Assembly: GCA_022566355.1 (NCBI GenBank)
Contig: JADFJB010000176.1
Coordinates: forward strand, 1-6,474
DNA from: a candidate division KSB1 bacterium
Lineage (GTDB): Bacteria; Zhuqueibacterota; JdFR-76; DREG01
Direction: 5' to 3'
Length of the DNA: 6,474 nt
Shown: positions 3,291 to 6,474 of the stretch, one piece after another
Position numbering within the stretch: the stretch's first letter is position 1
Layout: each line of letters opens with the position of its first letter
Notes under the pieces: generated by a model
Seen by the model: only the letters and a program-made list of their open reading frames with translations
Told to the model about the DNA's origin: nothing
Database searches by the model: none
Translations under genes and position numbers: made by a program

Positions 3291-4130
3291 ATGAAGGTCA
3301 TTTGTGTTGTCATGCTATTTTTCGTCTTCCTTTCACTACCTTATAAATATGGCGAACCAAAAGCTAAGATATTACTCAATGGACCGATGATCCAAATTAA
3401 TCCCGACTCCCTATTCTTCGAAACCATGGAAAGCTATGATACTTTATTGGTAGTCAATCATGGGGATGTTGACCTGGTGATTGATAGTGTAAAGACATAT
3501 AGGGGTTTCGGGTATGGTATTGGGGTTGTAACCAAAGATACAACTTTTGGTTGGTCAGTAGTGAACCTTGACATTGAGCAATTTAAAAGAAATAGATTAA
3601 TTTTAGCACCCGGGAATACGGCGCAACTGATTGTATTTTCTCCAGACCTGTGTCCGGTTTGCAAATCAAATTCTTTTTTAAAGTTTTTCACTGACACCTT
3701 GTTTGTCTATAGTAATGATTCCGCGCATAATCCAGTGAAAATCTTTGCATCTGGAGAGGGAATCCAAAGCGCTGTTGAAGAAAGTTCCATTGTTCCTGAG
3801 GGTTTTATTCTACGCCAAAACTACCCCAATCCTTTCAATCCGCAAACCACAATTGAATATGCCATACCCCACCCTGCTCATGTTAGATTGGAAATCTTGA
3901 ATACCCTGGGGCAGCGTGTAGCTGTTTTAATCGACCAAAAACAAAATGCCGGTAAACACCAGGCAACATGGACAAGTAATGGACACCCAAGTGGCACTTA
4001 CTTTTTCAGAATCAATTCAGGCGGGTTTCAGCAAACCAAACGGATGACACTTGTTGAAATAAAGAAAACCACGGAGACACGGAGTAGCAAAGTGACAAAG
4101 GCACAGAGGGACAAAGTAACAAAGTTATAA
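3291..4130 (+). CDS. Secreted protein with ASH/choice-of-anchor-like domain and T9SS type A sorting domain
   Basis: A 279-residue predicted cargo of the type IX secretion system. Residues 1-18 are a signal peptide (MKV then a strongly hydrophobic core). Residues about 35-157 form a beta-sandwich resembling ASH/choice-of-anchor D domains: INPDSLFFE, TLLVVNHGDVDLVIDSV, LILAPGNTAQLIVFSP, closing with VKIFASGEG. A CPVC pair (121-124) inside it could form a disulfide. After a short linker comes the sorting domain (about 168-256) with VPEGFILRQNYPNPFNP, IEYAIP, VRLEILNTLGQRV, AGKHQATW, SGTYFFRI and TKRMTLVE. This domain normally ends at about this last motif. Here about 23 further residues (IKKTTETRSSKVTKAQRDKV and three more) follow, nearly all encoded by a low-complexity repeat that seems to have replaced the original stop codon. 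The ligand or role of the passenger domain is unknown. The gene stands alone and converges on the GWxTD gene. Confidence 0.85.
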   Translation: MKVICVVMLFFVFLSLPYKYGEPKAKILLNGPMIQINPDSLFFETMESYDTLLVVNHGDVDLVIDSVKTYRGFGYGIGVVTKDTTFGWSVVNLDIEQFKRNRLILAPGNTAQLIVFSPDLCPVCKSNSFLKFFTDTLFVYSNDSAHNPVKIFASGEGIQSAVEESSIVPEGFILRQNYPNPFNPQTTIEYAIPHPAHVRLEILNTLGQRVAVLIDQKQNAGKHQATWTSNGHPSGTYFFRINSGGFQQTKRMTLVEIKKTTETRSSKVTKAQRDKVTKL

Positions 4131-4220
4131 AGGCACAAAGCAAAAGACGTGAGACGGCAAACGTGAAACGGAGAAAACCACAAGGGCATGGAGGCACAAG
4201 ACACGGAGGCACAGGAGAAT
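4068..4220. repeat. Degenerate 8-bp-period purine-rich repeat (CCACGGAGACACGGAG type)
   Basis: From 4073 the sequence falls into nine consecutive 8-base units in one phase up to 4144: GGAGACAC, GGAGTAGC, AAAGTGAC, AAAGGCAC, AGAGGGAC, AAAGTAAC, AAAGTTAT, AAAGGCAC, AAAGCAAA. Two 14-base near-copies follow (ACGTGAGACGGCAA at 4147-4160, ACGTGAAACGGAGA at 4161-4174). A second run of the 8-base unit comes next, with GGAGGCAC at 4190-4197 and 4205-4212. The type (phrases such as ACCACGGAGACACGGAG) is known as dispersed intergenic low-complexity sequence in many environmental bacterial genomes. The first ~60 bases are translated as the tail of the preceding protein. The reverse strand is open here too, but its Cys/Leu/Ser/Pro-rich translation is a by-product of the repeat. 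Confidence 0.8.
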
Positions 4221-4376: not shown

Positions 4377-6419
4377 TTATCTTTTCAGTGTGAAAGAGGT
4401 TTTCGTTTCTTTCGAATCATTGGATATTTTGTCCACTACTTTGACAACCATTTCATAACTCCCATTGCTCAATTGGCTGAAATCAAGCTTGATTGAAAAA
4501 TATTCGTGGATCTTTCTCCCTTGTTGATTATAGGCGATCGAAATACTGCCTTTCCCTTTACCAAAGGGATTAAGCTTAGAAACAAAAGCCATAACCCCCT
4601 TTTTCTTTACCGGATCAACCTTGTATTCGATTTCATATTGGGTATTGCCAGACACATTCTTCTGCAGATTATAAATTTCGAAATAGATAGATACAGGTTC
4701 TTTTGTTCTTAATTCTGAAAACGGATTGATCTTGATAGCCAGGTTATTCCTGATGAGAAATGACGACTTTTCCGATTGATTAAGTGCAGAAACCGGGTTG
4801 ATCTCTTGCGCAAAAATCACACTACTGAGTTGCAGGTGTTGATCTGAATAGGGTGGATTTTTAATTGAATAGTCTTCAAATCCTTTTTGTTTTCCTGAAG
4901 GATTCGAAACATCGGCAAGGATGTAGAAAATATTATGAACAGTTGTAAATTGGATTTGGTGAATCAATTCTCCTTTTTCACCGAATTTGGCGGGCTCTAT
5001 GGGAATCGAATTCTCTTTCATGCTAAGATCATTGAGATTGGGATCCCGAATCACGGTATGAATAATTAACTCTTGCTGACTTTCCGAACCGGCTTTTGAT
5101 AATTTGACATCCTCTTCCCTGAATCCATAAGCCAGGGCTAATGTGTTTTCATTATTGCTGTTCATAAATAATGCCGGCTTCATGGAAAAATGTAATTCTG
5201 ATATGTTATCAAATTGATTACTGACACTGACAGGAATTTTTGTTTGTTCAATTGTTTGTTCTCTTAGAAATCCATCAAATAATATTTCTATTTCTTCAAT
5301 TTTTATATCCCCCCCTCCATCAACTTTCGAAAATGCGGCAGCAAATCTCACATCAAGATCGACACGCGTGCGCATTATTTCACTAAAAGCAATTCTACGT
5401 CTTATAGATCCACGTTCCATCGATCTCGGGAGAATGTCTTCGGCTAAATAAGCCAGAGAATATCCCCATATTTTATCGACAAAATTAAAAACGATCTGCT
5501 TGCCGGATATTCGGTATACCCAGGTCTCTAACGATCTCCCCGCGACAAGTACTCCAGGAGCATTAAATACATCCTGGTAAACAGGCATCACCTCTACTTG
5601 CTTTGCATCCGGTTGTCCGTATCTTATATAAATCCTGCCCCGGTCGTCATACCTGGTTGGTGGTGTTAATGCTGAATAAATTGTCCGGGCAAACTGCAGC
5701 CGTTTATAATGTTCTTCGAGTCTTTCATTTGTTTTTGTTCCCAATGACATATCCCGTATCAACCAAAAACGTCTTAGAAATTCTGCCTTTTGTCTATTTT
5801 TCTTTAATGATTTCCATTTTTTTGCTTCATCATCATTAACAATTTCGATGATATCTTTATGAAGTTGGTCTATCACCATTTTATGATCAAAATTAATAAA
5901 GGCTAACTCATCCAAAGCTTCGACGATTGTCTCGCCACCGAACTCTTGATCTGATTTAGACCTTATGATTTTTTCCAGTTTTTCAATATTCGGGATGCGG
6001 TCTGAATAAAAAAGAAGGGATGAGCCCGGTTGATAATCAAATGGCAGCATGTCTCCGACGCGTTTCTTGGCCCAGTAACCGTATCGTTTAATGGCATGTT
6101 GATAAAGGAGATTTCCACAAGTATCAACTGTAACCGATGAATCAGTTAATTCAATCCAGGATTGTTGAATCTTCTCATGGGTATATTCGTCATTCTCTTT
6201 TGTATATTCAACTTTCAATATGTCTAAAAATGAAACATAGCGTTCATGAAGTGATTTGCCATTTGTTACTTTTATGGGAAACTTATTTATCATCGTTGGG
6301 ATTGTTTCTATTTTCTCCTTTTCAATATTTACCAATTGAGAGATGATAAAACCTTCGCTATTTTCTTTCTCTCTAAGAACGGATACTATAAAATGACGTA
6401 ATGAGCCCAAGTAAGCTAA
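4377..6419 (-). CDS. GWxTD domain-containing protein (5' partial, truncated by the contig end)
   Basis: 680 residues are visible. The frame is open back to 6419, where genuine sequence gives way to adapter, so the true start is missing; the in-frame TTG at 6410 only looks like a start. The region around residues 214-303 (numbered from 6419) is the GWxTD homology region: FLRRFWLIRD, then NERLEEHYKRLQFARTIYS, then PTRYDDRGRIYIRYGQPD (254-271) and ETWVYR (298-303), followed by FNFVDK. The name-giving GWxTD is replaced by TRYDD. The C-terminal ~330 residues look like beta-sandwich domains, with LQLSSVIFAQEI, LAIKINPFSEL, EPVSIYFEIYNL and YEIEYKVDP as recognisable conserved blocks, and SQLSNGSYEMVVKVVDK near the end. 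GWxTD proteins are characteristic of Bacteroidetes, Ignavibacteria and KSB1-like bacteria and are usually exported; their molecular function is not established. No signal peptide can be assessed because the N-terminus is absent. Confidence 0.85.
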   Translation of the reverse strand, partial: LAYLGSLRHFIVSVLREKENSEGFIISQLVNIEKEKIETIPTMINKFPIKVTNGKSLHERYVSFLDILKVEYTKENDEYTHEKIQQSWIELTDSSVTVDTCGNLLYQHAIKRYGYWAKKRVGDMLPFDYQPGSSLLFYSDRIPNIEKLEKIIRSKSDQEFGGETIVEALDELAFINFDHKMVIDQLHKDIIEIVNDDEAKKWKSLKKNRQKAEFLRRFWLIRDMSLGTKTNERLEEHYKRLQFARTIYSALTPPTRYDDRGRIYIRYGQPDAKQVEVMPVYQDVFNAPGVLVAGRSLETWVYRISGKQIVFNFVDKIWGYSLAYLAEDILPRSMERGSIRRRIAFSEIMRTRVDLDVRFAAAFSKVDGGGDIKIEEIEILFDGFLREQTIEQTKIPVSVSNQFDNISELHFSMKPALFMNSNNENTLALAYGFREEDVKLSKAGSESQQELIIHTVIRDPNLNDLSMKENSIPIEPAKFGEKGELIHQIQFTTVHNIFYILADVSNPSGKQKGFEDYSIKNPPYSDQHLQLSSVIFAQEINPVSALNQSEKSSFLIRNNLAIKINPFSELRTKEPVSIYFEIYNLQKNVSGNTQYEIEYKVDPVKKKGVMAFVSKLNPFGKGKGSISIAYNQQGRKIHEYFSIKLDFSQLSNGSYEMVVKVVDKISNDSKETKTSFTLKR

Positions 6420-6474
6420 AGATCGGAAGAGCCAACGTCTGACTCACATGCACTGACCAATCTCGTATACCCTC
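6420..6474 (+). other. Illumina TruSeq adapter read-through (sequencing artefact, index TGACCA)
   Basis: AGATCGGAAGAGC (6420-6432) is the exact universal start of the Illumina adapter. It continues in register, without gaps, through a degraded version of the 21-base stretch that follows in TruSeq (13 of 21 bases agree, including ACGTCTGA), then the exact six-base barcode TGACCA (6454-6459), which is TruSeq index 4. ATCTCGTAT (6460-6468) and a near match of the next bases follow. By my count 45 of 55 positions agree with the known adapter. This is not genomic DNA. Confidence 0.95.

Follow-up and report, generated by a model that had tools for sequence, protein, structure and literature searches.

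The window, by which we mean the whole 6474-base contig (C176) that was analysed, carries a gene for a GWxTD-domain protein on its minus strand and, directly upstream of it, at the contig end, a segment matching the TruSeq indexed adapter. The adapter and index sequences used for the comparison are those of TruSeq, TGACCA being index 4. The features of this end are as follows:

4377 to 6419, minus strand: native gene encoding a GWxTD-domain protein and truncated on its 5' side by the adapter, with about 240 N-terminal residues missing relative to homologues
6420 to 6474, plus strand: 55 bases of the 64-base TruSeq indexed (read 2) adapter with index 4, 45/55 identical
6420 to 6432, plus strand: common adapter start, AGATCGGAAGAGC, exact; the first A is perhaps an A-tail or native
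6433 to 6450, plus strand: adapter middle, with 8 mismatches that leave its base composition equal to that of the adapter block
6444 to 6446, minus strand: TGA in frame with the gene, a false stop contributed by the adapter
6454 to 6459, plus strand: barcode TGACCA, TruSeq index 4, which with 45/55 fits best among 24 indices compared, the others reaching 42/55 or less
6460 to 6474, plus strand: beginning of the P7 portion, with ATCTCGTAT intact and ACCCTC following in place of GCCGTC

Elsewhere in the window, positions 4055-4215, at the end of and just past a gene with a Por secretion tail, hold imperfect short repeats (ACCACGGAGACACGGAG...GGCACAAAG...), whose 17-base unit, with at most one mismatch, occurs only there in the genome. 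No Rfam families or tRNAs were found within the window, and no close related loci of the window were found.

The sequence-only reading had proposed that the last 55 bases align without gaps with the index 4 adapter, and an ungapped scan bears this out, with 45 of the 55 bases identical. With all positions of the window scanned on either strand, the adapter fits next best at 27/55, and in 50 shuffles it reaches 30/55 at most. Against the whole genome (4,622,658 bases), BLAST recovers this place with an E value of 5e-10, and the sole other match is a 14-base chance match. The binomial probability of the match is about 1.4e-18 at one position and about 1e-11 genome-wide. Chance similarity was rejected by the full position scan, the shuffles and the whole-genome BLAST. 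The three blocks that the same reading had named as exact are all present: the adapter start at 6420-6432, the single exact copy of AGATCGGAAGAGC in the 4.62-Mb genome; the barcode at 6454-6459; and ATCTCGTAT at 6460-6468. Identity around the barcode is already unbroken from 6451 on, over 18 bases (CACTGACCAATCTCGTAT). The segment opens with AGATCGGAAGAG(C), exact at 6420-6432; read-2 adapter, one of the listed 6-base indices and P7 sequence come next, in register. It lies at a contig end and points outward, with the 5' end of the adapter at the junction, the arrangement that reading through a short insert would need. Since the contig is 6474 bases long, the match extends to its very last base. 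The window copy shares with the index 4 adapter a 55-base ungapped alignment, the first 13 bases, the barcode and ATCTCGTAT, but differs from it by 10 substitutions and lacks the last 9 of its 64 bases because the contig stops. As had also been noticed, the mismatches are clustered after the first block and ahead of the barcode, with 8 of the 10 in 6433-6450 and the others at 6469 and 6472. The A at 6420 may belong to the adapter, to the A-tail of the insert or to the native sequence.

The gene at the junction shows where genuine DNA ends. Read on the minus strand from 6419 to 4377, its frame encodes a GWxTD domain (PF20094, E 3e-6). The same genome has a longer homologue, a full-length paralogue of 918 aa from its ATG (contig C100), as well as other relatives, and a same-family genome, G002, has one of 818 aa that runs off its contig; both the C100 and the G002 homologues have a CarboxypepD_reg-like domain ahead of the part shared with the window gene. 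At the junction the window reads LAYLGSLRHF, its first L being the codon 6419-6417, and four distinct homologues read QAYAGSMRHF, DTYTGSLRHF, RAYQGSMEHF and KAYRGSKIHF. Upstream of this point the open frame of the homologues extends for 241-246 more residues, if counted from the stop before it, whereas the frame of the window passes 6419 into adapter codons and hits the TGA at 6446-6444; similarity to the homologues stops around the junction, and the sequence is therefore native to 6419, where the gene is cut. This agrees with the earlier placement of the end of genuine DNA, the A at 6420 being ambiguous. The arginine codon at 6425-6423, encoded by the adapter, coincides with an arginine at the same place in the homologues, an agreement most likely due to chance because it concerns one residue only. 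The concern that gene callers could be misled also proved justified, both for a false stop inside the adapter, the in-frame TGA, and for the TTG at 6410 on the minus strand, which is native sequence and encodes a Leu within the protein; no possible start lies between it and the stop encoded by the adapter, so that a caller could take a false start there. The native continuation was not found on a second contig, the last 170 native bases occurring once in the genome, and a search of the genome with the N-terminal part of a homologue gave no convincing broken mate of the gene; a match at C65:140-442, directed at a contig end, is weak (E 0.0017).

No other contaminated ends were found in this genome, either with the 13-base adapter start, which has no exact copy on its other contigs, or with the read-2 part at up to 3 mismatches; the 10-base adapter start has five other matches in the genome, about the chance expectation. 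Among the 194 genomes searched as relatives, two others contain the start of the adapter with no more than 2 mismatches, one of them being G002. That genome holds seven TruSeq adapter copies (L274-L279), six of which are no more than about 230 bases away from a contig end; one copy sits about 1.2 kb into contig C113 and is a possible sign of a misjoin. All six G002 copies that reach the index carry ACTGATAT, not TGACCA, and a library shared between the two genomes is for this reason unsupported.

That TruSeq adapters contaminate microbial genomes, with the copies concentrated at contig ends and pointing outward, has been described (Moeller et al., 2024, PMC11536531), and this kind of artefact is ordinary, well known and already documented. 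The window likewise has a forward adapter at a contig end, directed outward, but its genome differs from those cases in that a single contaminated end was found, and in that the copy is poorer than usual. When the adapter pattern was relaxed by setting N at the barcode and wherever the window deviates in the middle part, it matched at least 120 stretches in a genome collection and at least 120 in a viral collection. Among the matches listed (at least 245), 239 of 245 lie within 200 bases of an end of the examined stretch, 241 of 245 face outward, and 239 agree with the standard adapter wherever the pattern has N, the rest being one base off there; the mismatch pattern of the window is found in none of the 245, nor did an exact search of the viral contigs find it. 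In a 5.5-Mb record of Mycolicibacterium houstonense (NZ_LT546207.1; L037, positions 766-813), a TruSeq adapter is not at the edge of the examined stretch and is possibly at a scaffold join; L047, L160 and L220 have copies farther from the contig end, or several per contig, which are possible adapter-mediated misjoins.

How the mismatches arose is a separate matter, and the identity of the segment as adapter is unaffected by it. Most likely they are late-cycle, low-quality base calls, with phasing, on few reads. The base equals an adjacent adapter base at 8 of the 10 mismatches, against 5.0 expected (P 0.04, post hoc), and the base composition of the middle block is the same with the mismatches as without them, which has a probability of about 0.02 for random substitution at the same sites (post hoc); they can also be expressed as paired deletions and insertions. 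The resulting pattern of swapped neighbours is suggestive only, and that it is systematic, with an unusual adapter batch or faulty base calling as its source, we hold to be improbable; if it were, simple exact-match adapter screens would be blind beyond the first 13 bases. It is likewise unlikely that the adapter is a true one whose mismatches lay in the oligonucleotide itself, from a faulty or custom batch. The conserved composition of the middle block and the possible paired-indel description would both suit this explanation, as would the fact that an assembler usually needs several agreeing reads; against it stand the absence of the variant from the listed public copies and from the viral contigs, and the two mismatches of the P7 part, which would have to be in the oligonucleotide too. 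Phasing suits the mismatch pattern better than does a faulty oligonucleotide.

That the 55 bases are native DNA resembling the adapter by chance, as the ten mismatches and the shared arginine might suggest, has a negligible likelihood, given the genome-wide probability of the match, its position exactly at the contig end, the in-frame TGA where homologues extend by some 240 residues, and the loss of protein similarity near the junction. Thus, because the match is far beyond chance, lies at the contig end, faces outward, has a real barcode in place and coincides with a break in homology, positions 6420-6474 are almost certainly an untrimmed, imperfect copy of the synthetic TruSeq index-4 adapter and not DNA of the organism. 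Counting against this are the 18% of mismatches, high for a consensus, the lack of an exact 13-base adapter start on any other contig of the genome, the absence of the mismatch pattern from the 245 listed public copies and, in an exact search, from the viral contigs, and the arginine codon shared with homologues, most likely a coincidence. One or more library inserts would have ended at native base 6419 (or 6420), and a read would have passed through a short insert into the ligated adapter; with the adapter untrimmed, the assembler may have lengthened the contig along this read and halted within the adapter, the ten mismatches then being low-quality late-cycle calls from very few reads.

An exact screen of the genome with a longer stretch of the adapter would overlook the copy in the window. 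The contig needs trimming at 6419 (or 6420), and the gene at 4377-6419 needs a 5'-partial label, the TTG at 6410 being unfit as its start. Positions 6420-6474 hold no biological feature, and the finding is a matter of quality control only.
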